Shown piece by piece: positions 2 through 62,510 of a stretch of DNA of 64,000 bases. The DNA is taken from the NCBI RefSeq assembly GCF_019933235.1, contig NZ_CP082945.1, positions 2,170,001 to 2,234,000 on the forward strand. The letters are read 5' to 3'. The position numbers and the translations under genes are program-made. Below the pieces are notes generated by a model. The model did not search any database. It had not been told where the DNA came from and saw only the letters and a program-made list of their open reading frames with translations. Positions within the stretch are counted from its first letter, which is position 1; each line of letters starts with the position of its first letter. The DNA is from Streptomyces angustmyceticus. Lineage in GTDB: Bacteria; Actinomycetota; Actinomycetes; Streptomycetales; Streptomycetaceae.

Positions 2-2740
2 GAGCTCGGCGACTGGCGGGTGGTCATCCACTCCCCCTTCGGCGCCCAGGTCCACGCCCCGTGGGCACTCGCCCTCGGCGCCCGCCTCACCGAGCGCTAC
101 GGCATGGACGCCCAGGTGATGCACGCCGACGACGGCATCGTGCTGCGGCTGCCGGACGCCGACCTGCTGGGCCTCGACCTCCTGGACGGCGACGGCGGCT
201 TCGATCCGGCCGCCGATCCGGGCCTGAGCGCCCGCGGCGCGGAGTACGACCCCGAGCAGTCCCCCGTGGGGGCGGCCGATGTCGCCTTCGAGCACGGCGA
301 GGTCGACCAGATCGTCACGGACCAGGTCGGCGGCTCCGCGCTGTTCGCCTCCCGGTTCCGGGAGTGCGCCGCCCGCGCCCTGCTGCTGCCGCGGCGCAGC
401 CCCGGCAAGCGCACCCCGCTGTGGCAGCAACGGCAGCGCGCCGCCCAGCTGCTGCAGGTGGCGAGCGAGTTCGGGTCCTTCCCGATCGTGCTGGAGGCCG
501 TCCGCGAGTGCCTCCAGGACGTCTTCGACGTACCGGGCCTGGCGGAGCTGATGGGGGACATCGAGGCCCGCCGGGTCCGGCTCGTGGAGGTCACCACCCC
601 CGAGCCGTCCCCGTTCGCCCGCTCGCTGCTGTTCGGGTACGTCGCCCAGTTCCTGTACGAGGGCGACTCCCCGCTCGCCGAGCGCCGCGCCGCCGCCCTC
701 TCCCTGGACTCCCGGCTGCTGGCCGAGCTGCTGGGCCAGGCCGAGCTGCGCGAGCTGCTGGACGCCGAGGTGCTGGCCGGGCTGGAGCGCGAGCTGCAGT
801 GGCGCACGGACGACCGGCGGGTCAAGGACGTCGAGGGCGTCGCCGACGTCCTGCGGCTGCTCGGGCCGCTGACCGACGCCGAACTCGCCGAGCGCGGCGC
901 GGATCCGGCCTGGACCCGGGAGCTGGCCGCCGCCCGCCGCGCGATCCCGGTGCGGATCGCCGGGCAGGACCACTGGGCCGCCGTCGAGGACGCCGGCCGG
1001 CTCCGCGACGCCCTGGGCACGGCCCTGCCGGTGGGTGTCCCCGAGTCGTTCACGGAGCCGGTCAAGGACCCGCTGGGCGACCTGCTGTCCCGTTACGCCC
1101 GCACCCACGGCCCGTTCACCTCCGAGCAGGCCGCCGCCCGCTTCGGCCTCGGCACGGCCGTCACCGACGGCGCGCTGCATCTGCTCGCCGCGGCCGGCCG
1201 GGTCGTCCAGGGGGAGTTCCACCCCGCGGGCATCGGCCAGGAGTGGTGCGACGCCCAGGTGCTGCGCAGGCTGCGCCGCCGCTCGCTGGCCGCGCTGCGC
1301 GAGGAGCTGGAGCCGGTGCCGCCCGCCGCGCTGGCCGCCTTCCTCCCGCAGTGGCAGCACCTCGGCGCTCCCCGCCCGGCCCCGGCGAGCGGGGTGCCCG
1401 CCCCGCTCGCGGGCTCGTCGCACAGCCTGCGCGGGATCGACGGTCTGGTGCGCGCCGTCGAACAGCTCCAGGGCGCCCCCGTGCCCGCCTCCGCCCTGGA
1501 GAAGCTGGTGCTGCCCTCCCGCGTCGGCGGCTACACCCCCGCCCTGCTGGACGAACTCACCGCCACCGGCGAGGTGGTGTGGGCCGGCGCCGGCGCGCTG
1601 CCCGGCAAGGACGGCTGGCTCTCCCTGTACCTCGCCGACACCGCCCCGCTCCTGCTGCCGCAACCCCTCCCGCTGGAACTCACCGCGCTGCACGAGTCGT
1701 TGCTGACCGCCCTCGGCCCCGGATACGGACTGTTCTTCCGCCAGCTCGCCGACCAGGTCCGCGCCACCACCCACCCCGAGGCCACCGACGCCCAGCTCGC
1801 CGACGCCCTGTGGGACCTCGCCTGGTCGGGCCTGCTCACCAACGACACCCTCGCGCCGCTGCGCGCCCTCCTGGGCTCGGGCCGTACCGCCGGCTCGACC
1901 GCCCACCGCGCCCGCCGGGCCGTCCCCCGCGGCAGATACGGCTCGCTGACCGCGGCGGCGGGCCGCGCCGGCCGCCCCACCGCCTCCCGCTCGGGTCCGC
2001 CGACCGTGGGCGGCCGCTGGTCGCTGCTGCCCGCCGCCGAACCGGAACCCACCCACCGGGCGCACGCCCTGGCCCGCACCCTCCTGGACCGGCACGGCAT
2101 CGTCACCCGCGGCGCGGTCGCCGCCGAGGGCGTCGAGGGTGGCTTCTCCGCCGCGTACCGCGTGCTGGCCGCCTTCGAGGAGTCCGGCCAGGCCCGCCGC
2201 GGCTATGTGGTCGAGGGGCTGGGCGCCGCCCAGTTCGCGATGGACGGCGCGGTGGACCGGCTGCGCGCGGTCAGCACCCGGCGCGAGCGCGCCACCGAGG
2301 ACGCCTTGCCGGACGGCGGCCCGCCGCAGTCCCGGGGCGGCGGCCCGCAGCGCGCGCTCGTGCTGGCCGCCGCCGACCCGGCGAACGCCTACGGCGCCGC
2401 CCTGTCCTGGCCCGAACCGCCCGAGGGCTCGACCCACAAGCCCGGCCGCAAGGCGGGCTCCCTGGTCGTCCTCGTCGACGGCGAGCTGACGCTCTACATG
2501 GAGCGCGGCGGCAAGACCCTGCTGATCTGGCCGCTCGGCGACGAACCGGCCCCGGCCGCCGCGGACCCCCGCCTCCGCCTCGCCGTCGAGGCGCTCACGG
2601 ATGCCGCCCGCGCCGGCGCCCTGGGCACCGTCACCACCGAACGCATCAACGGCACCTCCGCGCTCACCTCGCCCTACGCCACCACCCTGGAATCCGCCGG
2701 CTTCCACCCGACCCCGAGGGGGCTGCGGCTGCGCGGGTGA
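2..2740 (+). CDS. lhr: Lhr-type ATP-dependent helicase, C-terminal part (5' end outside window)
   Basis: The reading frame is open from the first bases, so the start and the two RecA-like helicase domains lie upstream; the 912 codons seen are the C-terminal part of a protein usually about 1,500 residues long. The first residues carry the HSPFG..VHAPWA signature that follows the helicase core in Lhr (large helicase-related, superfamily 2, DEAD/DEAH class). Next comes a stretch rich in Arg/Leu (QRxxAxxLLQVAxEFGSFPI) typical of the Lhr core, then winged-helix-like and C-terminal Lhr domains. Actinobacterial Lhr is a 3'-5' DNA/RNA:DNA helicase linked to DNA repair and is induced by DNA damage in mycobacteria. 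The Nei-type glycosylase gene follows after 54 bases on the same strand, so a shared repair operon is plausible. Confident on family; nothing can be said about the ATPase motifs. Confidence 0.9.
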   Translation, partial: ELGDWRVVIHSPFGAQVHAPWALALGARLTERYGMDAQVMHADDGIVLRLPDADLLGLDLLDGDGGFDPAADPGLSARGAEYDPEQSPVGAADVAFEHGEVDQIVTDQVGGSALFASRFRECAARALLLPRRSPGKRTPLWQQRQRAAQLLQVASEFGSFPIVLEAVRECLQDVFDVPGLAELMGDIEARRVRLVEVTTPEPSPFARSLLFGYVAQFLYEGDSPLAERRAAALSLDSRLLAELLGQAELRELLDAEVLAGLERELQWRTDDRRVKDVEGVADVLRLLGPLTDAELAERGADPAWTRELAAARRAIPVRIAGQDHWAAVEDAGRLRDALGTALPVGVPESFTEPVKDPLGDLLSRYARTHGPFTSEQAAARFGLGTAVTDGALHLLAAAGRVVQGEFHPAGIGQEWCDAQVLRRLRRRSLAALREELEPVPPAALAAFLPQWQHLGAPRPAPASGVPAPLAGSSHSLRGIDGLVRAVEQLQGAPVPASALEKLVLPSRVGGYTPALLDELTATGEVVWAGAGALPGKDGWLSLYLADTAPLLLPQPLPLELTALHESLLTALGPGYGLFFRQLADQVRATTHPEATDAQLADALWDLAWSGLLTNDTLAPLRALLGSGRTAGSTAHRARRAVPRGRYGSLTAAAGRAGRPTASRSGPPTVGGRWSLLPAAEPEPTHRAHALARTLLDRHGIVTRGAVAAEGVEGGFSAAYRVLAAFEESGQARRGYVVEGLGAAQFAMDGAVDRLRAVSTRRERATEDALPDGGPPQSRGGGPQRALVLAAADPANAYGAALSWPEPPEGSTHKPGRKAGSLVVLVDGELTLYMERGGKTLLIWPLGDEPAPAAADPRLRLAVEALTDAARAGALGTVTTERINGTSALTSPYATTLESAGFHPTPRGLRLRG

Positions 2741-2794
2741 GGGCAGTCAGCGGAGGCACGCCCCCGGCACGGGCCCGCCGGGCATGATGGTGAC

Positions 2795-3646
2795 ATGCCC
2801 GAAGGCGACACCGTCTGGCGCGTGGCCCGGCGGCTCGGCGAGGCGCTGGCCGGGCGGCCGCTGACCCGCTGCGACCTGCGCGTCCCCCGGCTCGCGACGG
2901 TGGACCTGACCGGCCGCGAGGTGCTGGACGTGGTCCCCCGCGGCAAGCACCTCCTCACCCGCTTCGAGGGCGGCCTGACCCTGCACTCCCATCTGCGGAT
3001 GGACGGCGCCTGGCAGGTCTACGCCCCGGACGAGCGCTGGCGCGGTGGCCCCGCCCACCAGATCCGGGCCATCCTCGACACCGCGGAGCACACCGCCGTC
3101 GGCTACCGCCTCCCCGTTCTCGGCCTGCTGCGCACCACCGACGAGTCCCGGGTCGTCGGCCACCTGGGCCCCGACCTCCTCGGCCCCGACTGGGACCCGG
3201 CCGAGGCCCTCGCCCGGCTGCTCACCGCCCCGGAGCGGCCCCTCGGCGAGGCCCTGCTGGACCAGCGCAATCTGGCCGGCATCGGCAACGTCTACAAGGC
3301 GGAGCTGTGCTTCCTGCTGCGCGCCTCCCCCTGGCTCCCCGTGGGCCGGCTGCCCCGGCCCGAGCGCGTGCCCGCCCTCGCCAAGAAGCTCCTCGAAGCC
3401 AACAAGCTCCGCCCCGCCCGCACCACTACCCCCTGGGGACAGCGGTCCGGTCCCTTCGCGGGCGGCGGGAGAGGCCGCCCCGACCGCCGGCTGTGGGTCT
3501 ACGGCCGGGCCGGCCGCCCCTGTCTGCGCTGCGGCACGGCAGTCCGCTCCGCCGACCAGGATCCGGCCGCCCAGGACCGCGTCACCTACTGGTGCCCCGC
3601 CTGCCAGCCCGCCCCCGGCCCGCCGGACACCCCGCCCGCCCGCTGA
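2795..3646 (+). CDS. nei: Fpg/Nei family DNA glycosylase/AP lyase (endonuclease VIII type)
   Basis: 283 residues, the usual length. The protein starts MPEGDTV: after removal of Met, Pro2 is the Schiff-base nucleophile and Glu3 the catalytic acid, and the GDTV form is typical of Nei rather than Fpg (which has PELPEV). A Lys in RGKH near residue 50 is the conserved catalytic lysine. The helix-two-turn-helix segment (LLDQRNLAGIGNVYKAE, about residues 155-171) is clear, and the C-terminus holds a CxxC...CxxC zinc finger (CLRC...CPAC, about residues 245-272). It removes oxidised pyrimidines and cleaves the abasic strand. It lies 54 bases after the lhr helicase, consistent with a DNA-repair pair. 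Mycobacteria and streptomycetes have several Nei paralogues, so the exact paralogue is not assigned. Confidence 0.93.
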   Translation: MPEGDTVWRVARRLGEALAGRPLTRCDLRVPRLATVDLTGREVLDVVPRGKHLLTRFEGGLTLHSHLRMDGAWQVYAPDERWRGGPAHQIRAILDTAEHTAVGYRLPVLGLLRTTDESRVVGHLGPDLLGPDWDPAEALARLLTAPERPLGEALLDQRNLAGIGNVYKAELCFLLRASPWLPVGRLPRPERVPALAKKLLEANKLRPARTTTPWGQRSGPFAGGGRGRPDRRLWVYGRAGRPCLRCGTAVRSADQDPAAQDRVTYWCPACQPAPGPPDTPPAR

Positions 3647-3708
3647 GCGAGCGGCTCCCCCCGCCCCACCAATTGACGCCCCGTCAGATTCCTCCCTACC
3701 CTCGCCCC

Positions 3709-4485
3709 ATGCCCTTCACGGCGTACGACCTCACGGGCCGCATCGCGATCGTCACGGGCGCGGCCGGCGGCATCGGCCGCGCCACCGCCGTCCTCCTCGC
3801 CGAGGCCGGGGCCACCGTCCACTGCGCCGACCTCGACGGGCCCGGCGTCGAGGAGACCGCCGCGGAGATCACCGCCGCCGGGGGCTCGGCGCACGCCCAC
3901 CGCCTCGACGTGACCCGGCGCGACGAGATAGCCGCCGTCGTCGACGCCGCCCGCGATGCCACCGGCCGCCTCGACGTGATGGCGAACATCGCCGGAATCA
4001 TGCACTCCGCCCCCGTCCTGGAGACCGCGGACGCGGACCTGGACCGGGTCTGGACCACCAACTTCAAGGGCGTGCTGTACGGCTGCCAGGAGGCCGCCCG
4101 CGCGATGATCGCCACCGCCACCCCTGGTTCCGTGGTGAACATGGCGTCCGGCGCGATCGACACCGGCGCCCCCGGCCTGCTCTGCTACGGCGCGGCCAAG
4201 GCCGCCGTCATCCAGCTCACCAGGACCCTGGCCACGGAAGTGGGGCGGCACGGCATCCGCGTCAACGCCGTCGCCCCGGGCTGGGTCCGTACGCCGATGA
4301 CCGAGCGCCACACCGCGCAGGCGCAGCAGCAGGCGGAGGGGCCGATGATCCGGATGTCCCCGCTGGGCCGGGTCGGCGAACCGGAGGACATCGCGCACAC
4401 CGTGCTGCACCTGGCGTCGGACGCCTCGTCCTTCATGACCGGCCAGATCCTCCGCCCGAACGGCGGCGTCGCCATGCCCTGGTGA
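3709..4485 (+). CDS. Short-chain dehydrogenase/reductase (SDR), classical type
   Basis: 258 residues. The N-terminal Rossmann motif TGAAGGIG (about residues 16-23) binds NAD(P)(H); an Asp-Leu-Asp after beta-2 (CADLDG) suggests NAD(H) preference. The catalytic Ser is in NMASGAID and the Tyr/Lys in CYGAAKAA, with the expected YxxxK spacing; the usual NNAG is replaced by NIAG. The C-terminal PLGRVGEPEDIA and GQILRPNGG segments are standard for FabG-like SDRs. The open frame runs much further upstream, but similarity begins at the ATG at 3709 and the earlier part overlaps nei. The substrate cannot be told from sequence. The gene stands alone between nei and a convergent small membrane gene. Confidence 0.88.
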   Translation: MPFTAYDLTGRIAIVTGAAGGIGRATAVLLAEAGATVHCADLDGPGVEETAAEITAAGGSAHAHRLDVTRRDEIAAVVDAARDATGRLDVMANIAGIMHSAPVLETADADLDRVWTTNFKGVLYGCQEAARAMIATATPGSVVNMASGAIDTGAPGLLCYGAAKAAVIQLTRTLATEVGRHGIRVNAVAPGWVRTPMTERHTAQAQQQAEGPMIRMSPLGRVGEPEDIAHTVLHLASDASSFMTGQILRPNGGVAMPW

Positions 4486-23524: not shown

Positions 23525-26643
<3,119 letters not shown>

Positions 26644-28692: not shown

Positions 28693-28750
28693 GACGCTTC
28701 CTTTGTGCCTGTTTCACCAGGCTCTCCGGGCGCTTCCCTTCGGTCTTGCG

Positions 28751-46530: not shown

Positions 46531-46768
46531 CATTTCTCCCCGAATTGCATGACGGCCACCTGCCGACATCGCTTCAGGTCTAGCACACCCGCAATAGGCC
46601 CGAAGCCCTCTCAGGAGCGGGCGCGGGGCGGACCGCGGAATTCGCCGTGGAGCAATATCCGGCAATACCGACAACCCCCGCCTTGACGCCCCGTTCACAC
46701 CCGTCATTAGACTCATGCCGCCGGTGCCGCACAAGCGGCCCTGTGCCATCACGTTCCAGGGGGCAGAC

Positions 46769-47176
46769 ATGAACAATGAGCGGCAGATCCAGGACGAGGA
46801 CCTGATGGACGTCGCCCAGGATCCCGAGCAGGCGCACCGGCTGCGCAAGGCGCTGAAGGTCCTGGCGGACAACCCCAACGTCGGCGGCAAACTGCAGGAG
46901 ATGGCCCAGGAGGTGCTCTCCGGGCGGATCGGCATGAAGGACGCGATCGAGACGCCGCGGTACATGGACGCGCTGGGCGACCGGATGAACGAGATCCGGC
47001 GGGCCGCGGAGAACCAGACGATGGCCGAGCGCGAGGAGTCCCGCGAGAAGTTCGCCGCCTGGCAGAAGGAGCAGGAGGCCAAGGAGGACGAGGAGCGCGC
47101 CGAGCGCGACGGCCCCTCCGGCAGCATCGTGACCGGCCCGCGGCGCGGCGGCCGGGGCGGCGGCCACCGGGGCTGA
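46769..47176 (+). CDS. Small charged helical protein next to ESX genes, function unknown
   Basis: 135 residues. Helical, charged; the segment LADNPNVGGKLQEMAQEVLSG (about residues 33-53, in pieces) resembles the STI1/DP-repeat fold of co-chaperones (Pro-Asn-Val with flanking amphipathic helices). The tail is Glu/Lys then Gly/Arg-rich. ATG at 46769 with CCAGGGGG upstream; an earlier in-frame ATG at 46715 is less likely. Divergent from the WXG100-like gene at 46530. No signal peptide or membrane helix, so likely cytosolic; a chaperone-like role for substrates is only a guess. Confidence 0.7.
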   Translation: MNNERQIQDEDLMDVAQDPEQAHRLRKALKVLADNPNVGGKLQEMAQEVLSGRIGMKDAIETPRYMDALGDRMNEIRRAAENQTMAEREESREKFAAWQKEQEAKEDEERAERDGPSGSIVTGPRRGGRGGGHRG

Positions 47177-47211: not shown

Positions 47212-47541
47212 GTTCGGAGAGACGCCCGCCTTTCCCTCTCTCCGAAATCCGTTCAAACACTGCGGAAAGCCGATACGGAAGAAAGCGGATCGACCGCCGG
47301 ATCATGCGGACGGACCTGCTTTCTTTCCGCACACGGCGATCTCCTTTTCTCCACATCGGGCCCGGGGGCAACGGCGTTCACACCCGCCCCCGCCCGCCTT
47401 CCGCCACGCCCCCCCGCACACCGGCCCCGGCCTGCGTGTTCCAGTTCCGGCACAGCCCACCCCGCGCAGCGCTGCGCACGCGGCACGGATCATAGGATCG
47501 AGCCGGACACGCAGGAATCCACAAAGGTGGAGGCGGGATTG

Positions 47542-49932
47542 ATGGGGGACGAGGAAGTCATGAGCGCCTCAGGCGAAGGAAATGCCGTGGCAGCCGGATA
47601 CGCACCACATCCGTACATCGGCGGCCGCACCGCCGTGCTCCGCGCACTCGCGGCCTGGCGCATGCGCTGGCCCGGCGCACCGCGCGTCATCGTGCTCACC
47701 GGCAACCCGGGCAGCGGGCGATCGCGCCTGGTCACAGGCTTCTTGATGATGTGCGACCCCGGCTACCGCAAGCAGTTGCCGCTGGACGACCTGGACCCGG
47801 CGACGGTGCCCCCGGACCTCCCCGCACCCGCCGTACCGAGCCCCGCGGGGCGCACCGCCGCACAGCTGTTGTGGATGATCTCCGATCATTTCGGACTGGA
47901 CGCCGGGCGCGGCGATGACATCTTCACCGAACTCGCCGCTCGTGAAGAGCCGGTGACTCTGGTGGTGCCGGATGTGGACCGGGCCGGTCCGGTGCGCGCC
48001 GCGGACGAGCCGGCCCGTGTCGTCCGGGACGTGCTCAAGCCGCTCGCCGCCACCGAAACGGTTCAGCTGCTCGCCGAGGTACCGCGCGAACTGGCCGCGG
48101 AGCTGGCCGGGGCACTGCCGTCGGGCCAGGCGCAGATCATCGACCTCGACGCGGCCGAGTGGGCCGACCCCAAGGGCCTGGTGCTGCACGCCGAGACCGC
48201 GCTCACCCCCGAGGCGGGGGCGCCGGACCTCCCGTTCACCACCGACCCGTCGGCGCGCCGGGCGCTCGCCGAGGCCCTCGCGGCCCGCGCGGACGGCAAC
48301 CGGCTCACCGTCCAGCTCGCCGTGCAGTCGCTGCTCCTGCAGCCCGAGGGCTTCGACCCGGCGGACGCGTCGCTGCTGCCCGGCACCGTCGGCGAGGCGC
48401 TCGACCTGCACGCCCGCCGGCTGGGCGCCGATCCGCAGACCCTGCGGCTGATGCTGGCGCCGCTCGCGCTGGCGGAGGGCGAGGGGCTGCCCGTCCAGCT
48501 GTGGGGCACGCTGGCGAGCGCGGTCGCCGGCCGGGACATGAGCCAGGACCTCACCGACGGCATGCTGCTGGCCGCGCCGTTCGTCCAGCCGGTCGAGCCG
48601 TCGCGGGACGGGGACGGGAACGGCGACGGGGGCGAGGACGGGAACCGGGGCGGTGTCCCGAGTAGCGCCGCGGACGGCGGCGGGGCCGGTGCCGGGGCCG
48701 GTGCCGCTTCCGGTGCCGGCAGCGACCGTACGCTGCTGCGCCTGACGCACCCCGGGGTCGCCGAGGAGATCCGCTCCGGCCTGCCGGACGTCCGCGACGC
48801 CCAGACCCGGATCGCCATGGCGCTGCTGGAGGCGGTGCCCCAGCAGGACTGGTCCCGGGCCGATCCGTACGTCCGCGACCATCTGGCGGCGCACACCCTG
48901 GACGCCGGCCTGCTCCCCCAACTCCTCACCGACCCGGGCCTGTTCGCGCACGCGGACCCGGTGACGATGCGGACCGCCATCGAGGCCGTACCGCCGGAGC
49001 AACTGGGCGCACCGGCGCGTACGTACCTGCGCACCGCCCCGCTGCTCACCCGCTCCGCGGCCCCCGCCGAACTGCGGGCGGCGTTCCTGGAGTCCGCGTT
49101 CGTCGAGGACGGGCTGGTGGCCTACGCGGAGGCCCTGCACACGCTCGGCTTCCGCCTGCCGTGGCGGACACTGTGGAGCGTGCCGCTGGTCGGCGTCCGC
49201 GCGGTGACGACGGGGACGCTGCCGCCGGCGAACGAGAGCGCCGGCTCCGCGGTGGACGCGGGCGGGAACCCGGACGGGACGTCGGCGGAAGCGGGCGGGA
49301 ACCCGGGCGGCACGGCGGCGGAAGCGGGCGGGAACCCGGATGGCACGTCGGCGGAGGCAGCCGGGGGCCCGGGTGCGACACCGACCACCCCCTCCACCTC
49401 CTCCGGCCCGTCCGGCTCCTCCGGCCCGTCCGGCTCCTCCGGCTCCGGCGCCCCGGCGCCGGTTTCCGGTACCGCCGCGCCCCGTCCCGTGGCCGCCTTC
49501 CTCGTCCCCGAGGGAACCCCGGGCTCCCGTACGCTGCCCGGCCAGGACGGCGACGCCCCCGGGGCGGGCGGCCGGGCCCTGCTCGTCCACGATCTGCTGC
49601 GCCCCGGGTACCTCGACGCCGATCCGGCACAGGTGCAACTGACCTCCGCGCAGGCCCAGGAGGCCGCGCCGTTCGGGCTCAGCCGCGGCGCCGACTACCT
49701 GCGGGTCTGGGCCCGGGCGAGCGAGGAAGTGGTGGCCGCGCTGGTCTCCGACACCCCGTTCACCGGCGCCGACCTCTCCCCGGACGGCGTGCTGGTCGTG
49801 GCCACCGCGCGCGGTGTGACCGCCCGGCAGATCCTCGCCGCGGCTCCCGCGCCCGCCCCCACCGTGCCGGCCCAGCGCACCGGCACCGCCGACTCCGCTC
49901 CGTCCGACGGCCTCGAAGGAGACCACTCGTGA
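47542..49932 (+). CDS. Large P-loop protein of the ESX locus with Arg in the Walker A motif
   Basis: 796 residues. N-terminal P-loop of AAA/STAND style: VIVLTGNPGSGRS (about residues 53-65), in which the usual GxxxxGK[ST] Lys is Arg. A Walker B-like VTLVVPDVDRAG follows (about 140). A helical region follows with repeated Leu/Ala helices (as in STAND sensor parts), then a low-complexity linker with 33-bp repeats and Ser/Gly/Pro runs (about 570-640) and a last globular region (650-780) with LSPDGVLVVATARG. The ATG at 47542 is chosen as GGAGG lies eight bases before it; a GTG at 47527 would place this inside the gene. Stop overlaps the start of the immunity-type gene (GTGA). Exact family not recognised; nucleotide binding unproven. 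Confidence 0.7.
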   Translation: MGDEEVMSASGEGNAVAAGYAPHPYIGGRTAVLRALAAWRMRWPGAPRVIVLTGNPGSGRSRLVTGFLMMCDPGYRKQLPLDDLDPATVPPDLPAPAVPSPAGRTAAQLLWMISDHFGLDAGRGDDIFTELAAREEPVTLVVPDVDRAGPVRAADEPARVVRDVLKPLAATETVQLLAEVPRELAAELAGALPSGQAQIIDLDAAEWADPKGLVLHAETALTPEAGAPDLPFTTDPSARRALAEALAARADGNRLTVQLAVQSLLLQPEGFDPADASLLPGTVGEALDLHARRLGADPQTLRLMLAPLALAEGEGLPVQLWGTLASAVAGRDMSQDLTDGMLLAAPFVQPVEPSRDGDGNGDGGEDGNRGGVPSSAADGGGAGAGAGAASGAGSDRTLLRLTHPGVAEEIRSGLPDVRDAQTRIAMALLEAVPQQDWSRADPYVRDHLAAHTLDAGLLPQLLTDPGLFAHADPVTMRTAIEAVPPEQLGAPARTYLRTAPLLTRSAAPAELRAAFLESAFVEDGLVAYAEALHTLGFRLPWRTLWSVPLVGVRAVTTGTLPPANESAGSAVDAGGNPDGTSAEAGGNPGGTAAEAGGNPDGTSAEAAGGPGATPTTPSTSSGPSGSSGPSGSSGSGAPAPVSGTAAPRPVAAFLVPEGTPGSRTLPGQDGDAPGAGGRALLVHDLLRPGYLDADPAQVQLTSAQAQEAAPFGLSRGADYLRVWARASEEVVAALVSDTPFTGADLSPDGVLVVATARGVTARQILAAAPAPAPTVPAQRTGTADSAPSDGLEGDHS
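49261..49370 (+). repeat. 33-bp in-frame tandem repeat
   Basis: Three full units starting at 49261, 49294 and 49327 (each begins GGCGGGAACC) and a decayed fourth near 49360. They encode GGNPDGTSAEA-type 11-residue repeats in the linker of the P-loop protein. Confidence 0.9.
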
Positions 49933-51254
49933 TCACCCAGGCGCAGGCCCAGGCCACCGCCGCCCGCTGGCTCAGCCCCGAGGGGCACCAGGGTCCGCCG
50001 CGGGACGTGGCCATGCAGGAGTTCGACCTCGGCTGGGTGGTGTGGGCCGTACCGCCGCCCCCGGAGACCGACCCGCGGACCGGGCAGCGGCGCCCGCCCG
50101 CCGAGGTCGGGGCCGCCTGCGGAGTCGTCGACCGGGCGTCCGGCGAGCTGACGGTGTGGCCGTCGGTACCGGTCGACGAGGTCATCGGGATGTACCGGCA
50201 GAAGCACGGCGCCGGAGCGGCTCCCTCGGCACCCGAGGAGCGCCCGGTCACCGGCCCCGGCAACACGGCCGTCGCGACCTACAACGACCCGTCGACCGGC
50301 GAGGAGACCAGCCTCGCCCGGGTCTCGGCGCCCGGAGCCCCGCCCGCCGAGTACCAGCTCCTCGACGAGCTGCGGCGGCTGGGCGCGGACCCCGCGGACG
50401 TCCGCGCCGTCCACACCGATCTGCGCTCCGCCCTCCTGCCCGGCGGCTACCCCGGCGACCTCCTCCTCCGCACGTTCACCAACGCCACGTTCTCCTGCAC
50501 CGAGGGCTACGGCATGCGCCCCGAGGAGCGCGCCGAGGGCGTCGCCGGGCTGGTGCGGCACGTCGAGATGATGCACCGGATGGCGGGCCGGGAGGCGCCG
50601 CCGCGGCCGCACCGGCTGCCGGTGCCGCAGCACGTCGAGGCCGCGCCGCAGATGCGTGACGTGGCCCTCGGCAGGCACCTCGTGGAGGTCTTCGGCCCCC
50701 AGGGCGTATGCCGTCCGGACGCCGACGACCTCGCCGCGACGCGGCTCCCCGGGGCCACGAGGAACACCCTGGTCTGGGCCGGACTGCCCGCCCAGGTCCC
50801 GTACTTCTTCACCGCCGACCGCCCCGACGCCCCGCCGGCCGGCGGCCTGTTCACGGACGTGGCGACGCACCTGCGGGAAACCGGCACCCAGGCCGGCGAA
50901 GAGACCCTGACGACCCTCGCCGGCTACGTCCGGCTCGGCACCGACGGTCTCTACCCCCTCGCCGTCCAGTGCACCGCGACGGAACAGAACCAGAACCTCA
51001 TCGGCACCGTCTGGGCCGTCCAGCCCTCCTCGGGCGGCGGCCGCTTCGTCAACCGCTCCGTCGCCACCTACCTGCGCTCCCTCGCCCTGCTGACCACCAC
51101 CCGCACCCACATGCAGGGCATGGACCCCTACGCGGCCGGCACAGCGGTCGCCACCTTCCAGCAACAACTCGCGGCCATCGACCCCTGGTCACTCGACGAC
51201 AACAGCAACTGGTGGTCCCTGATCATCGAGCAGATGTGGCATGGGTTGTTCTGA
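49929..51254 (+). CDS. Three-domain immunity-type protein: Imm35/YrhB-like, inactive deaminase-like, SUKH-4-like
   Basis: 441 residues, GTG start overlapping the previous stop. Residues 1-95 resemble the Imm35/YrhB fold (EFDLGWVVWAV ... GVVDRASGELTVWPSVPVDEVI..Y). Residues about 115-215 resemble the nucleic-acid deaminase domain of polymorphic toxins, which in active relatives has HTELRSCELPGGYC; here it reads HTDLRSALLPGGYP, so Glu is Asp and both zinc-binding Cys are gone. Residues about 240-441 resemble SUKH-4 immunity proteins (VCRPDADDLAATRLPG, TLAGYVRLGTDGLYPLAVQC, GRFVNRSVATYLRSL, WSLIIEQMWHGLF). Likely a cytosolic binding protein, not an enzyme. Operon with the atypical P-loop protein, in the middle of the ESX locus. 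Domain calls come from remembered motif patterns. Confidence 0.72.
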   Translation: MITQAQAQATAARWLSPEGHQGPPRDVAMQEFDLGWVVWAVPPPPETDPRTGQRRPPAEVGAACGVVDRASGELTVWPSVPVDEVIGMYRQKHGAGAAPSAPEERPVTGPGNTAVATYNDPSTGEETSLARVSAPGAPPAEYQLLDELRRLGADPADVRAVHTDLRSALLPGGYPGDLLLRTFTNATFSCTEGYGMRPEERAEGVAGLVRHVEMMHRMAGREAPPRPHRLPVPQHVEAAPQMRDVALGRHLVEVFGPQGVCRPDADDLAATRLPGATRNTLVWAGLPAQVPYFFTADRPDAPPAGGLFTDVATHLRETGTQAGEETLTTLAGYVRLGTDGLYPLAVQCTATEQNQNLIGTVWAVQPSSGGGRFVNRSVATYLRSLALLTTTRTHMQGMDPYAAGTAVATFQQQLAAIDPWSLDDNSNWWSLIIEQMWHGLF

Positions 51255-51473: not shown

Positions 51474-51773
51474 TCAGGGCAACAACAACCAGTCCGCGGC
51501 CAGTGCGGCCGCCAGGCCAATAGCCAACAACCAGGTACCGAGCCGGGTACGCCCGTGCCGACTGAGTTCGATCACCACACCACAGAGCACCAGCGCGGCC
51601 CCGTACACCCCGACCACCAGCACCGACGTACGCGACGCCAGGCGCACCACGAGCACCACCGCCATCGCGGCCATCAACACCGAGGCCAGGACAATGCGTA
51701 TTCGCCTGGCCTGACGAGGCGTCAGCCCCACTCGACTCTCAGCAAGGGGCTCTTCATCGCCGACTACGTCCAT
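51474..51773 (-). CDS. Small three-helix membrane protein, function unknown
   Basis: 99 residues. Short acidic N-terminus, then three hydrophobic helices (about 28-45, 51-69 and 80-98) with basic loops. The ATG at 51773 is preferred; the frame is open to a TTG at 51875 but the extra part overlaps the relic end. Last gene of the minus-strand ESX run; no family recognised. Confidence 0.55.
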   Translation of the reverse strand: MDVVGDEEPLAESRVGLTPRQARRIRIVLASVLMAAMAVVLVVRLASRTSVLVVGVYGAALVLCGVVIELSRHGRTRLGTWLLAIGLAAALAADWLLLP

Positions 51774-51947
51774 GAGCGGGAATGCTACGGGACGAGTGAT
51801 CACCAAGGCCCCCCACTCCCCCGAACAACGCCAACTACACGGAACCCGGAGCCGATTCACCTCACCCTTCGGCAAAACTCCGAACCCCCGGGGCCAGGAG
51901 CACGCACACCCTGGCCCCCGAGCCGCCCACCCGTACCCTGTACTCGC

Positions 51948-55562: not shown

Positions 55563-55880
55563 TCACTGTCCGCTCATGCTGATTGAGTTGTCCGCCTCGG
55601 CGTCCTGGTAGGCGCCCCTGACCTTGTTCGACTTCTTGCCGAATGTGTCGACAAGGCCCTCAACCATGCGCATCATCTTGTGGATGTCGCCCTTCATCTT
55701 CTCGTGAGCCCCGTAGAGCTCCGTCTCCTCCTTGAATCCCTCGCCCAGGGATCCTTTCGGAAGATAGGTGCTGTTCTCGGCCGTGCTCGTCGAGTCGCCC
55801 ATCTCCTTGAGGACATGGTTGAGTTCCTTGATGACCTGATCCAACGCGTCGAGATCAACGCCGTACTGCCCGTGCGCCAT
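55563..55880 (-). CDS. EspC/WXG100-like small secreted protein
   Basis: 105 residues, two long helices around a turn PKGSLGEGF (about 41-49) in place of WxG. The second helix ends with Tyr91-Gln-Asp-Ala-Glu95, the YxxxD/E ESX export signal. Shape and signal suit an EspC-type (T7SS_ESX_EspC) substrate, likely partner of the PPE-like protein encoded next. Its ATG at 55880 comes two bases after the mycP stop, so the two are tightly coupled. Confidence 0.8.
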   Translation of the reverse strand: MAHGQYGVDLDALDQVIKELNHVLKEMGDSTSTAENSTYLPKGSLGEGFKEETELYGAHEKMKGDIHKMMRMVEGLVDTFGKKSNKVRGAYQDAEADNSISMSGQ

Positions 55881-57323: not shown

Positions 57324-57617
57324 TCAGCCCGCCCAGATGCCGGAGTTCTTGTGCTCGGTGGCCTGGTAGTTCTGGGCGGCCTGGTCCAGCGCCTTGGCGA
57401 TGGCCTCGAGCGTCGAGTGCAGGGAGGCGGCGCGCTGGTCCCACTCGCGCTGGCGGGCCTGGTAGCCCTCCTGCGCCGCACCTTCCCAGCTGGCGGCGAT
57501 CTTCTTGACGCCGGCCTCGAGGTCGTCCAGCTGCTGGCGGATGTTGTTGGCCGTACCGCGCACGTCGGAACTGGCCTGCGAGATCGTCGCGAAATTAACG
57601 AGGATCTGGCCTGACAT
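57324..57617 (-). CDS. esxA: WXG100 secreted protein EsxA
   Basis: 97 residues, helix-turn-helix hairpin with Trp44-Glu-Gly46 (SWEGAAQEGY) and C-terminal export signal Tyr84-x3-Glu88 (YQATE). Partner of EsxB in a heterodimer; in S. coelicolor the pair is needed for proper sporulation (known for homologues). Preceded by GGAG at good distance. Confidence 0.95.
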   Translation of the reverse strand: MSGQILVNFATISQASSDVRGTANNIRQQLDDLEAGVKKIAASWEGAAQEGYQARQREWDQRAASLHSTLEAIAKALDQAAQNYQATEHKNSGIWAG

Positions 57618-57739
57618 GGTGTCTCCTCAGGAGTAGATGATGCCTGGTCGATTCACATGCCGCAGCGGGCCGGCGGAGGAGTCCGACGGGCCCGGGCTGC
57701 GGCGGCTGGGCGTGCGCCGCGGTCAGCGGCGCGGCCCCA

Positions 57740-58063
57740 TCATCCGAACGGGGAAGCCGAGGCGGAGACGTGCGAGATCGACTGGGCCTGCTCCTCTTCG
57801 GAGGCGGAGTAGTTCTTCGTGGTCTCGTCGATCGCTTCCTTGATCTCAGCCAGCAGCTGGTTGAGACGGTTGGCGTCCTCGTTCACCTGGGACTGGAGCT
57901 GGTTGTACGAGGAGGCCGCAGCACCCTTCCAACCAGACGTGATGGTGTCGACGACCGTGTTCAGGCGCGAGATCTCGCCCTGGATCGACTGGTTGACCGA
58001 GGAGATCTTGCCGCTGAACGCGACCATCTCCTCCTCGGTGGTTGTGTACTGCTGACCAGCCAT
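57740..58063 (-). CDS. esxB: WXG100 secreted protein EsxB
   Basis: 107 residues with Trp45-Lys-Gly47 (GWKGAAASSY) and C-terminal export signal Tyr85-x3-Glu89 (YSASE). ATG at 58063 has GGGGGA upstream; an in-frame start at 58105 is less likely. First gene of the esxB-esxA-mycP-EspC-like-PPE-like run; a 17-bp palindrome lies about 137 bases upstream. Confidence 0.95.
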   Translation of the reverse strand: MAGQQYTTTEEEMVAFSGKISSVNQSIQGEISRLNTVVDTITSGWKGAAASSYNQLQSQVNEDANRLNQLLAEIKEAIDETTKNYSASEEEQAQSISHVSASASPFG

Positions 58064-58199
58064 AGTCAACGTCCCCCATGAGACTTGTACGTCGTACCGC
58101 GCCATGCCGCCACAGGCGCTCGCGCGGTAGGCATCTCCTGCTGACGCCTTTGGCTACTTTAACCACTCGATATGCCTCTCCCCAACAGGGGGAGCGTTC

Positions 58200-58216
58200 T
58201 TGTGACGCGATCACAA
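58200..58216. promoter_or_regulatory. 17-bp palindrome upstream of esxBA
   Basis: TTGTGACGCGATCACAA: two perfect six-base arms around CGCGA, about 137 bases before the esxB start. The arms look like CRP or GntR half sites but the spacer is five bases, not the six of CRP. The rest of the 58064-58458 gap holds the eccB terminator and no gene. Confidence 0.55.
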
Positions 58217-58371
58217 CATCACCAACTACCCGCCAGGGAAACGTCGTTCAAGGCAAACGGACAGAAGCGTTGCTATCGGTCACGAACGGGCACGCCGGAG
58301 TGCGACGAAGATCGCACGGAGAACAGGCGGGCCGGCTCAGGTGAATTTATGGTGCAGGAATCCGCGCGACG

Positions 58372-58419
58372 GCGAAGTCCGCGCCGATTGCCCCTCCCGG
58401 GCGCCGGCGCGGACTTCGC
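58372..58419 (-). terminator. Terminator of eccB
   Basis: Perfect 15-bp stem GCGAAGTCCGCGCCG and its complement, 40 bases past the eccB stop. It separates eccB from the esxBA promoter. Confidence 0.85.
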
Positions 58420-58458
58420 TCATATCAGGACGACCGCGGCTTCAGCACGGCCGTGCCT

Positions 58459-60096
58459 TCAGGACGACTGCGGCTTCATGGCGCTGTTGATGTCGAGCGA
58501 CGGGCCCTCGGAAAGCAGGCTCGACCATGCCTTCAGAATCAGCGGCGGATGCGTGCCCCCGTAGCCGAGGTGGAGCCTGGACTTGTCCAGTTCCTCCTTG
58601 TCGCTGCCGGCCTTGTTCGCGCTGTCGTTGTTCCGCGGAATGGAGTAGCGCAGGCCGGTGTCCGTTGCAAGGAAGAGGCTGCCGCTCTTCGCCTGCGGAG
58701 TGGGCACCTCCGTGTACAGCAGGCCGCTGCCGGGGGTGACGTACGAGCTGGATCCGCTGGCCATCTTGGCCGGGTAGTCCGTGCCGATCCAGGTCTGCAT
58801 GTCCGGCACGCCGTTCGGGTAGCCGAGCCGCTTCTCCTCACCGCCCGGGTACTTGTGGTTGGTGCCGTTGTAGACGCTGCAGGACACGCCGTGGTCCGTG
58901 GGCGAGGTCAGGCCGCCGGTCTGGGAACCGTGGGCGAAGTCGTTGGCCGCGGACTGGGTTTCGGTCGGCCACGGCGAGTCGATGTCGCCGAACACCTTGC
59001 CCAGGAAGGTCGTCGGGTTCCCCGCGTCGTCCGTCTTCGGGTCGATGCTTCCGGCCGCGATGGGCACCGGGGTGAGCCGGGAGCCGTCGGGGTGCAGCTT
59101 CTTCGCGTTCGCGCCCTCCTCCAGGAGGTTCGCGACGAACTTCGACACCTTCTCGACGCCGTCCCGCTCGACGACGTACTTGTCGCCGGAGCTGTCCTGG
59201 AGGATCGAGCCGACCCTCCGGGCCTTCTGCGGGACCTTCGGGTCGCTGGTCTCGGCGCCCGCGCCCTCGACCATCGGCATGCTGAGGGAGAGCTGCTCGG
59301 GGACGGGCAGCAGGGTCGCCATGAACTGCTTCGACACCTTCTGCGGAACGGCGTTGGAGCCGAAGATGATGCGGCGCAGCGCGGCGTCGCCCTCCTCCTT
59401 GCCCCCGGCGGGGCTCCACCCCATGCGGGTGGAGTCGAATCCGAAGGCCATGCCGTTGTGATCGACCAGCCACCTCTTGCCCTGCGGGTCCTCGACGTAC
59501 AGCGCCTGGTGGAGGTCGAGCTTGCCCTTGCCCTCGACGAGCTTCTTGTCCTTGCCGGCCAGGACGAAGACGGCCTGCTGGGGCTTGGCTCCGGCGCTCG
59601 CGCCGGGGCGGTCGCACACCGCCCAGGTCTTCGGCTTGTCGGCGTCCTCGGGGCTGGGCAGCCGGTCGGGGGCGTACGGAATGCCGAGCGCGGGGCCGTG
59701 CGGAATCTTTCCGTCCAGCTCGGATTCCTTGACCTTGACGACTTGGAACTTCGGGTCGATAAGAAGGCGGGCGGAGGCGAGGTTCAGGATGGGGTGCAGA
59801 AGTTTCTGGCCTTTGCCGCCCTTGCCTTTCAGAACGACATACCGCGTGGTGGATTCGTCCCCGACGATGACATTCTTGCCGACCTCGTCCCACCCCTGCG
59901 GCGCAACCGGCTTGAGAATGCCGCACGCGCCGAATCCGACGAGCATCAGGACACCCACGACGACACTCGGCACCACCGCCTTGAGCGGCTTGGGGGCGCT
60001 CTCGATCGAGCCGTTCGGCAGCGGCTTCAGAAATGCCGCATTCGTACGCTTTCGAGCGAACGAATACGCATTCAGCTCGTCCCGACGTGATGCCAT
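58459..60096 (-). CDS. eccB: Type VII secretion membrane protein EccB
   Basis: 545 residues. Starts MASRRDELNAYSFARKR, the EccB N-terminal basic stretch that contacts EccC, then a single membrane helix (VVPSVVVGVLMLVGFGACGIL, about residues 41-61) and a large extracytoplasmic domain with the R-repeat-like pattern and Cys residues. It forms the periplasmic/outer face of the channel with MycP. ATG at 60096. Divergent from eccE across a 186-base promoter region. Confidence 0.93.
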   Translation of the reverse strand: MASRRDELNAYSFARKRTNAAFLKPLPNGSIESAPKPLKAVVPSVVVGVLMLVGFGACGILKPVAPQGWDEVGKNVIVGDESTTRYVVLKGKGGKGQKLLHPILNLASARLLIDPKFQVVKVKESELDGKIPHGPALGIPYAPDRLPSPEDADKPKTWAVCDRPGASAGAKPQQAVFVLAGKDKKLVEGKGKLDLHQALYVEDPQGKRWLVDHNGMAFGFDSTRMGWSPAGGKEEGDAALRRIIFGSNAVPQKVSKQFMATLLPVPEQLSLSMPMVEGAGAETSDPKVPQKARRVGSILQDSSGDKYVVERDGVEKVSKFVANLLEEGANAKKLHPDGSRLTPVPIAAGSIDPKTDDAGNPTTFLGKVFGDIDSPWPTETQSAANDFAHGSQTGGLTSPTDHGVSCSVYNGTNHKYPGGEEKRLGYPNGVPDMQTWIGTDYPAKMASGSSSYVTPGSGLLYTEVPTPQAKSGSLFLATDTGLRYSIPRNNDSANKAGSDKEELDKSRLHLGYGGTHPPLILKAWSSLLSEGPSLDINSAMKPQSS

Positions 60097-60282
60097 TGTT
60101 GCTTTCTCTCCCCGCCTGTTGGATCCACATCGACCGCCCCCGGCACTCACGCCGTAGCGCCCTCTACTATGCCGTGTGTCGATCGACCCGTACGGTACGG
60201 GTGCCACCTTCCGGCGCACCAGTCTCAACGGGCGACCGATACGTCAGAGGGCCACACCACCAGTAGAGGAGCAGGCCGGGGG

Positions 60283-61668
60283 ATGTCCAGCGCCACCAGG
60301 GCTCGACGCCGCAATGGGCGGCAACAGCAGCAACAGCCTTCCGCTGCCCCGCAATACGCGGGAAATGCTGGCCAAAACGGTACAGCTTCGGGCAACAGAG
60401 GAAATGGCGACCGGGATTCCGCAGCCCGTCCGGTCGGCCCGGTGGCACCGCGGCTGCGCCAGCAGGCCGGAACCATCGGCGGGGTGCGCGTCCAGCAACT
60501 GGCCATCATCGAACTCGCCGCCGCGCTGGTGCTGGTGGGCTGGACGATCCACCCGGCCGCGCTGACCGCGGCCATCGTGATCGCGGCCCTGCTGGTCGTC
60601 TTCGCGCTCGGCCGGCGGCGGAGGATTCCGCTCCCGGAGTGGATCACGACCGTGCGCGCCATGAAGCGCCGCGGCAAGGAGAGCGCGGCCGCGCTGGCCG
60701 CCACGCAGGGCGTGGACCCCGCGTTCGCGCCGGTGGTGGAGTGTGAACCGGCGCTGCAGACCTACGAGTTCACCACCGAGGCGGACCAGCGCGCCATCGG
60801 CTTCGTCGGTGACGGGACGTTTCTGACGGCCCTCGTGCAGGTGGACGCCCGTGACGAGCCGCTGCGGCCGCAGCGCGGCAGCCACATGCTGCCGCTGGAG
60901 GTGCTGCACACCGCGCTCGACATCGAGGACATCCACCTCGAATCGGTGCAGTTCGTGCAGTACACCCAGCCCGCGCCGGCGCCGCACCTGCCCGAACAGG
61001 CCGTCGCGGCCCGCTCGTACGCCCCGCTGCAGGCCCAGTCCCAGACGCCGGCGCTGCAGCTGACCTGGATCGCCCTCAAGCTCGACCCCGAGCTGTGCGC
61101 GGAGGCGATCGAGGCCCGTGGCGGCGGGATGGAGGGCGCCAAGCGGTCGCTGCTGCGCGCCGCCGACCAGCTCGTCAGCCGGCTGACCGCACACGGCGTA
61201 CGCGCCAAGGTGCTCGCCGAGCGCGAGGTCGTGGCCGCCATCGGTACCGCGGTGTGCGTCAGCCCGCGGGCCGCCAACGGGGCGATGGGGCGCGACGGCC
61301 GGGCGGCCCGCCGCACCCAGGAGACGACCCGGGCCATGCGCTGCGACGACCGCTGGCACACCACCTACTGGATCGGCCGCTGGCCCCAACTCGGCGAGGG
61401 CGGTGCCCCGTTGGCGGCGGTCACCCAGCTGCTGACCAGCACCAGGGCGATGGCGAGCACCTTCACGCTGACCGCCACCCACGGCGGCGGCCGCGCCCCG
61501 GCCATCTCGGGATACGTCCGTCTTTCCACCCGCAGTGAGAACGAACTCTCCGCCGCCCAGAGCGAGTTGGAGCGCCGTTCCGGTTCCGTGAAGGTCGGGC
61601 TCGTACGGCTCGACCGGGAACAGCTGCCCGGCCTGCTGGCCACGCTCCCCCTCGGAGGTACCCGCTGA
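60283..61668 (+). CDS. eccE: Type VII secretion protein EccE
   Basis: 461 residues. Basic Gln-rich N-terminus (RRRNGRQQQQQ), two membrane helices (about residues 70-105, QLAIIELAAALVLVGWTIH and LTAAIVIAALLVVFAL), then a soluble mixed domain, the EccE shape. It stabilises the ESX membrane complex from its outer rim. ATG at 60283 with GAGGAG upstream. Stop and the next start share an A (TGATG). Confidence 0.88.
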   Translation: MSSATRARRRNGRQQQQQPSAAPQYAGNAGQNGTASGNRGNGDRDSAARPVGPVAPRLRQQAGTIGGVRVQQLAIIELAAALVLVGWTIHPAALTAAIVIAALLVVFALGRRRRIPLPEWITTVRAMKRRGKESAAALAATQGVDPAFAPVVECEPALQTYEFTTEADQRAIGFVGDGTFLTALVQVDARDEPLRPQRGSHMLPLEVLHTALDIEDIHLESVQFVQYTQPAPAPHLPEQAVAARSYAPLQAQSQTPALQLTWIALKLDPELCAEAIEARGGGMEGAKRSLLRAADQLVSRLTAHGVRAKVLAEREVVAAIGTAVCVSPRAANGAMGRDGRAARRTQETTRAMRCDDRWHTTYWIGRWPQLGEGGAPLAAVTQLLTSTRAMASTFTLTATHGGGRAPAISGYVRLSTRSENELSAAQSELERRSGSVKVGLVRLDREQLPGLLATLPLGGTR

Positions 61669-62510
61669 TGGCCTCTCCCACCTATCAGCCCCGCGTCAAC
61701 ACCAGCGGCAACGGCTGGCGCAATCCCCCCATCGGGGGCGGCGTCAGCGGCGGTCGGCTCTCGCACCAGCCGCGCCCCGACGAGGAGCAGTCGGGCCCGA
61801 CCGGCCCGAAGCCCCGGCCCGGTTTCGGCCTGCGCGGCCCGCGGCGCAGCCCGCACGTCCTGACCGCCGAGTCGCTCGCCTCGCTGACCCTGCCGGTCGG
61901 CGACGACGGCGTGATCATCGGCATCGACCCGCAGAACCAGCCCGCCGTGCTGAGCCTGCTGCGTCCGTCGCCGATGGAGATCGCGCTGGTCGGCAGCATG
62001 TGGATGGCACAGGTGCTGGCGCTGCGCACGGTCGCCACCGGCGCCCGGGTCGCCGTCGAGACGGCGCGGCCGCCGGCCTGGGCCCAGATGGCACAGGCCG
62101 CGGGCGGCGGCCAGCAGTGCGTCTCCGTCCACGACGTACGGCAGATCGCTCCCCAGGGACCGTCGGTTTCCAGCCCGGTGCTGGTCGTACGGGACATGGG
62201 CGCGCGCCCGCCGCGCAATCAGCTCGCCCCGAGCCCCTGGCAGTCGGTGCTGACCGTGCTGCCGTTCCTCGGGCCGCGGTCGCCGCAGATGCTCAGCCGC
62301 GCCGATCTGGTCGGTCTGCAGCGGCTTTCGCCCGAGGAGGCGGAGGTTGTGACGCGAATCATGCGGCTGCCGGAGCAGGTCGGCGCGGTGCTGCCGACGC
62401 TCAGCGACAACGCCATGCTGTGGTGCTCGCGCGACGGCCACCAGTTCGTGATGACCCAGCCCACGGAGGCGGAGACCAACCTGCTCGGCGGGCCGCGCCG
62501 AATGGACTGA
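61668..62510 (+). CDS. Conserved ESX-linked protein downstream of eccE, function unknown
   Basis: 280 residues. Gly/Pro/Arg-rich N-terminus (about 1-60), then a globular part with alternating beta strands and helices (LTLPVGDDGVIIGIDPQNQPAVLSLLRP..., about 73-270). No signal peptide or membrane helix. Translation coupled to eccE by TGATG, so it likely works with EccE at the cytosolic face. I do not recognise a fold. Confidence 0.82.
   Translation: MASPTYQPRVNTSGNGWRNPPIGGGVSGGRLSHQPRPDEEQSGPTGPKPRPGFGLRGPRRSPHVLTAESLASLTLPVGDDGVIIGIDPQNQPAVLSLLRPSPMEIALVGSMWMAQVLALRTVATGARVAVETARPPAWAQMAQAAGGGQQCVSVHDVRQIAPQGPSVSSPVLVVRDMGARPPRNQLAPSPWQSVLTVLPFLGPRSPQMLSRADLVGLQRLSPEEAEVVTRIMRLPEQVGAVLPTLSDNAMLWCSRDGHQFVMTQPTEAETNLLGGPRRMD

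Follow-up and report, generated by a model that had tools for sequence, protein, structure and literature searches.

The esxB and esxA genes of Streptomyces angustmyceticus are preceded by a perfect inverted repeat, which raises the question of whether this repeat regulates the esxBA promoter and what kind of protein might read it. A sequence-only reading of the window (the whole stretch of 64,000 nucleotides analysed, contig NZ_CP082945.1) had pointed to a TTGTGA-N5-TCACAA palindrome upstream of esxBA, had called it rare by chance and had proposed that it resembles CRP-like half sites with a shorter spacer. When the sequence was re-read, the letters and coordinates of the palindrome (58200-58216) proved right, as did its intergenic location between eccB and esxB/esxA, the last two of which encode WXG100 proteins.

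57324-57617, minus strand: esxA (WXG100, family match)
57740-58063, minus strand: esxB (WXG100, family match)
58200-58216, minus strand: palindrome TTGTGACGCGATCACAA (TTGTGA-CGCGA-TCACAA), reading TTGTGATCGCGTCACAA on the esxB-sense strand, at predicted positions -67 to -51
58372-58419, no strand assigned: GC-rich inverted repeat GCGAAGTCCGCGCCG/CGGCGCGGACTTCGC
58459-60099, minus strand: eccB, the gene upstream of esxB on the same strand (start codon uncertain)

The esxB ATG (A at 58063, minus strand) and the nearest base of the palindrome are 137 bases apart. The strong GC-rich inverted repeat at 58372-58419, after eccB, is the probable end of the eccB transcript. The cluster, which adjoins the genes for ribosomal protein S15 and PNPase, also contains genes for EccD, an FtsK/SpoIIIE ATPase (EccC), EccE, two subtilases and an ATPase with an SCO5717-type N-terminus. 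No DNA-binding family was found among the ESX cluster proteins scanned; five ORFs (46715-47176, 47527-49932, 51474-51875, 55563-55880 and 61668-62510) matched no family in the libraries used.

The claim that such a palindrome is rare by chance was overstated. The window has 50 perfect 6-N5-6 inverted repeats, compared to about 37 expected from base composition; symmetry by itself is therefore no proof, because exact repeats of this kind are not rare in this GC-rich DNA. The claim does hold for the A/T-rich arms (at least four A/T bases in 2 of the 50 repeats) and for the exact motif, which is expected 0.03 times per 8.1-Mb genome (calculated from the base composition of the window). Indeed, a search of the own genome (8.1 Mb) for the same 17-mer, which the sequence-only reading had proposed, found the exact pattern at one place; there were no places with one mismatch and 22 with two, vs. 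33 for the reversed control. Two of these two-mismatch matches (25284-25300 and 28703-28719) recur as a pair, separated by ~3.4 kb, at three other genomic places, probably rRNA operons. In the genus, TTGTGATCNCGTCACAA is present in 16 of 392 genomes (reversed control, 0), at a single place in each, and all 16 places (own genome and 15 others) adjoin esxB. One-mismatch places across 16 genomes are few and scattered. A search of the open-licence literature in PubMed Central found neither the palindrome nor its core in print.

The sequence-only reading had staked its case on the motif being kept in closely related esxB upstream regions. EsxB homologues were sought in 151 genus genomes (own genome included), 122 of which gave EsxB-like matches. 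Loci were built for the best 30 matches of these 122 genomes; 13 of them (L002-L014, identity of about 70% or more) were used for the palindrome and L015-L028 for a second motif (see below), while L029-L031 were inspected and not used further. A further 25 esxB loci were taken from GTDB contigs of named species. The resulting conservation set comprises 37 distinct regions of 38 loci (L040 is identical to L007), 27 with an EsxB identity of at least 76% and 10 with 69-76%; the figures for these 27 + 10 regions are unbiased, as the loci were found by protein search only.

The motif is kept: the exact palindrome is present in 22 of the 27 distinct upstream regions with at least 76% EsxB identity, and the other five (L039, L047, L048, L054 and L056) possess near forms with 1-3 arm changes. 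Sorted by EsxB identity, exact copies were found in 9 of 11 regions (95% or more), 6 of 7 (85-95%) and 7 of 9 (76-85%), and in none of the 10 regions at 69-76%, one of which (L013) has a near form. The mean identity of the 17 palindrome bases is 97%, compared to 69% for the upstream flank (-200 to -165), 74% for the stretch between the palindrome and the -35 region and 68% for hairpin 2 of the leader (see below). When 84 17-base windows upstream of -100 were ranked, the top three included that of the palindrome, and the other two are the same window shifted by one or two bases. In an esxBA tree of 37 rows with midpoint root, a single branch (93/87) divides the 28 rows that carry the site or a near form from the nine that lack it. 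Within this clade of 28, the near forms from Actinacidiphila soli (L047) and from G084 (L013) branch as sister to the remaining 26 rows, and near forms arose again later inside it. The site is restricted to one clade, which includes Streptomyces lydicus, S. noursei and S. rimosus. Neither this restriction, nor the uniqueness of the site in each genome, nor the structured leader RNA predicted downstream (see below) had been anticipated by the sequence-only reading.

The stretch between the palindrome and esxB contains candidate promoter elements.

58149, minus strand: predicted transcription start, placed from the -10 position alone
58156-58161, minus strand: TAAAGT, candidate -10 element of the form TA(A/G)(A/T)GT
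58180-58185, minus strand: TTGGGG, candidate weak -35 element, 18 nt before the -10 candidate

A TA(A/G)(A/T)GT box is found in all 41 distinct regions within the range of 70-140 nt ahead of the esxB start codon, its actual distances being 74-108 bases. Among the 32 rows that carry the palindrome, exact or near, the box is 47 nt from the palindrome centre in 28, 48 nt in three and 46 nt in one (L047); note that these rows include some loci picked by the exact pattern, so that conservation in the rows used for geometry and leader is biased toward the site. With the box taken as -12 to -7, the palindrome would lie at -67 to -51, its centre being near -59 of the predicted start. TTGGG(A/G), 18 bases ahead of the -10 box, was the sole -35 candidate seen, and a consensus scan of 57950-58600 revealed no sigma-70-type promoter with a good -35 element. 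The predicted promoter would accordingly combine a good -10 with a poor -35 element. In HrdB promoters, the -10 element is highly conserved (taken as TANNNT) and the -35 element is weak or absent, as described in PMC6344877.

The palindrome is embedded in a longer conserved block, on which a sequence model (R1) was based.

58198-58228, minus strand: conserved 31-nt block TAGTTGGTGATGTTGTGATCGCGTCACAAGA, consisting of the palindrome and its flank
58223-58227, minus strand: AGTTG, six bases upstream of the palindrome

R1 has 31 positions and was built from 24 rows; L047 and L013, whose flanks diverge, were left out of the 26 distinct blocks. In each of 16 genomes it gave a single strong match (32.4-41.7 bits), the next best match anywhere having 15.1 bits. 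No regulon of similar sites was visible at the sensitivity used, i.e., with 150 of about 2,700-4,100 first-look candidates scored per genome, and degenerate or weak sites might be overlooked because of this number. Several sites of similar quality per genome, as the motif of a global regulator should have, were likewise found in none of the 16 genomes. The palindrome is conserved nearly letter for letter, and no second copy of comparable quality turned up in these genomes; it is probably a docking site of a regulatory protein. Conservation and fixed promoter geometry lend good support to its regulatory role at the esxBA promoter.

We regard it as fairly probable that the palindrome is the core of an operator of the esxBA promoter and that a dimeric regulator most likely binds to it to turn on esxBA. 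At about -67 to -51, the site would directly precede a promoter whose -10 element is good and whose -35 element is poor, and this is the usual place for activators that touch RNA polymerase from upstream. The regulator, having no recognisable gene in the ESX cluster, would be encoded elsewhere (unlinked), and once bound it would probably activate esxBA. The prototype for such class I activator sites is the Crp site at -61.5. Common to both is a palindrome that is centred at about -60 and precedes a promoter whose -35 element is poor; the esxBA site differs in its N5 spacer and in being without a visible regulon of similar sites.

How firmly can the block be read as symmetric? The arms are conserved to 98% and the five core bases to 96%, an unusual feature in a simple dimer site, where the spacer is free, and changes in the arms (L013, L039, L047, L048, L054 and L056) are never mirrored; L054 and L056, with EsxB 98-99% identical to the own protein, deviate in the right arm. 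Given the equal conservation of core and arms and the lack of mirrored changes, part of the symmetry may be accidental, and the chance of an accidental 6-base inverted repeat in a 28-nt conserved block is roughly 0.05 (from 5.8e-4 for each position and spacer and about 90 combinations). Taken together, these data make the symmetric reading likely and fall short of proving it. As an alternative, the block could be a protein site or promoter element that is conserved without being read symmetrically, its palindrome being partly accidental; we think this rather unlikely. Besides the conserved core and the unmirrored changes, it would explain why AGTTG, which is not part of the palindrome, is just as invariant, keeping its register in 24 of the 26 distinct blocks (the exceptions being L013 and L047). 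Furthermore, a conserved, non-palindromic motif, TGTGTGA-N4-TGTAAC, is present at the same distance in a more distant esxB group, starting 55 nt before TAGAGT in 13 of the 14 loci L015-L028 (L016-L028). Against it stand the exact arms in 22 of 27 regions and the extension of the symmetry to 7-base arms, GTTGTGA-N5-TCACAAC, in 12 of the 26 distinct blocks (own genome not among them). Two-mismatch relatives of TGTGTGA-N4-TGTAAC occur at L084 969-986, L089 998-1015 and L087 996-1013, upstream of a gene that is presumably rbpA and between genes that are presumably dnaN and dnaA; they are possibly due to chance, because the reversed control gives similar numbers of matches.

Other explanations abandon the dimeric operator in different ways. 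The sense strand can also be written GTTGTG-N5-GTCACA, which might be a direct repeat bound by an OmpR-type response regulator, MtrA in the first place or GlnR; we consider this unlikely. The site form of GlnR is GTNAC-N6-GAAAC, which at the palindrome mismatches at 2 of its 9 specified bases in eight of the nine palindrome regions compared (3 of 9 in L013), but 14.5% of shuffles are as good in the own region and 14.5-83% over the nine rows. TCACAA would begin at about -56, and this half-site is similar to the MtrA half-sites TCACAAA (ssgB) and TCACCAA (whiI) at -55 in S. venezuelae (PMC13189361); whiI-a of S. coelicolor lies at about -69 to -53 (PMC5650626). MtrA activates whiI from the same position as that predicted for the palindrome. 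The MtrA site, however, is a direct repeat, KTRACC-N5-GTKACN (PMC5650626), and the esxBA site matches the full repeat no better than shuffles do: the own region has 3 of 11 mismatches (45% of shuffles equal or better), and the nine palindrome rows have 2-3 (10-66% of shuffles as good, 10% being the best of the nine). The same source describes hundreds of candidate MtrA sites in S. coelicolor, whereas the esxBA block is unique. MtrA as the regulator of esxBA may nevertheless serve as a lead. Besides the nine palindrome rows, to which the GlnR and lac O1 comparisons were confined, the MtrA scan included seven further rows and 13 rows from the more distant group.

The half-sites suggest a Crp or Rex site with unusual spacing, which we judge very improbable. 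In Streptomyces, the Crp site has the form GTGNCNNNNGNCAC, and the half-sites TGTGA/TCACA of Crp and Rex are six bases apart. The resemblance to CRP-like half sites with a shorter spacer was correctly seen by the sequence-only reading, the spacing between TGTGA and TCACA being five bases and not six; TTGTGA resembles the half-sites of both proteins. Nevertheless, in the five regions scanned (L002, L003, L006, L013 and L043; also used for Rex, BldD and BldM), the best Crp matches had 3 of 8 (GTGNCNNNNGNCAC) and 4 of 10 (TGTGA-N6-TCACA) positions wrong in L002, L003, L006 and L043; those in L013 (2 of 8 and 3 of 10) were located away from the palindrome. The Rex operator consensus, TTGTGAANNNNTTCACAA (PMC5355995), had at best 6 of 14 mismatches in all five regions. 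It shares the outer TTGTGA/TCACAA arms with the esxBA site, which is one base shorter, has other inner bases and occurs once per genome. Moreover, the Rex sites described in the passages of PMC5355995 considered here overlap the promoter boxes, separate them or follow the start, and the esxBA site lies upstream of the candidate -35 element. As inverted repeats can fold in RNA and eccB lies upstream on the same strand, the palindrome might instead form a hairpin in a transcript (an attenuator or part of a terminator), but its location upstream of conserved promoter-like boxes speaks against this, as does the fact that sequence rather than pairing is kept, without a compensated change, unlike in the leader hairpins downstream; this, too, is highly unlikely. 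A functionless chance repeat is scarcely credible in view of the conservation and the fixed promoter geometry, common as such repeats are in the window.

A development regulator, also suggested by the sequence-only reading, found no backing in the BldD and BldM comparisons. The BldD consensus is TNACNCWGNGTNA, and the best matches to it had 4 of 9 mismatches in all five regions. BldM was compared as well, using the group I (TCACCCGNNCGGGTGA) and BldM-WhiI group II (TGNNCCGNNCGGGTGA) consensus sequences given in PMC4125116; the best matches in the five regions had 4-6 of 14 and 3-4 of 12 mismatches, respectively. The GntR family, which had also been suggested, has varied operators; no regulator gene linked to the site was recognised among the ESX cluster proteins scanned. 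The lac operator O1, TTGTGAGCGGATAACAA, has the same odd 17-base spacing as the palindrome and differs at 1 of 12 specified bases in seven of the nine regions and at 2 in the other two; the shuffle control is no fair test here, because the pattern was picked after the palindrome had been seen. The LacI site overlaps the transcription start, and there was no sign of a LacI-type protein here.

Downstream of the predicted start, the leader of esxBA (58065-58148, minus strand) would fold into three hairpins, the ribosome-binding site being inside the third.

58130-58148, minus strand: leader hairpin 1, GGCGTC-N7-GATGCC, at the predicted 5' end
58097-58127, minus strand: leader hairpin 2, with compensatory changes in the stem
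58065-58090, minus strand: leader hairpin 3, around the Shine-Dalgarno-like GGGGGA (58072-58077)

The helices were counted in 32 of the 41 distinct regions, which include loci picked by the exact palindrome pattern, and 96.5% of the cells were paired. Two-sided changes affect five pairs (shuffles, 1.7) and 14 cells (shuffles, 2.3), compared to at most two pairs and five cells in slid controls; three of the six pairs of hairpin 2 and one pair each of hairpins 1 and 3 are involved. The leader thus shows the compensatory helix changes of a cis-acting leader RNA. Note that the own leader, folded as a single sequence, does not stand out (z -1.41). With strict filters and a cut-off of E 0.01, a leader model (R2) matched 7 of 151 genomes, each hit being beside esxB. 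An Rfam search of 57500-58600 gave five matches up to E 5, all to microRNA families and far below gathering scores. We suggest a role of the leader in mRNA stability or translational control.

To return to the dimeric operator, a tentative and not very probable extension of it would be that a dedicated unlinked regulator, with a single strong site per 8-10 Mb genome, controls the entry of EsxB and EsxA into the ESX system, leader hairpin 3 adding translational control. If true, the dedicated regulator and the leader would represent a clade-specific rewiring of type VII secretion. In a search of the open-licence literature in PubMed Central, no report of a regulator that binds to the Streptomyces esxBA promoter was found. 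The genome-unique 31-nt block is a convenient bait, and a pull-down with it could identify the regulator and reveal when type VII secretion is in use in Streptomyces. Finally, an ORF beside the ESX cluster (49161-51254) encodes an XOO_2897-like deaminase domain together with a SUKH-4 immunity domain.
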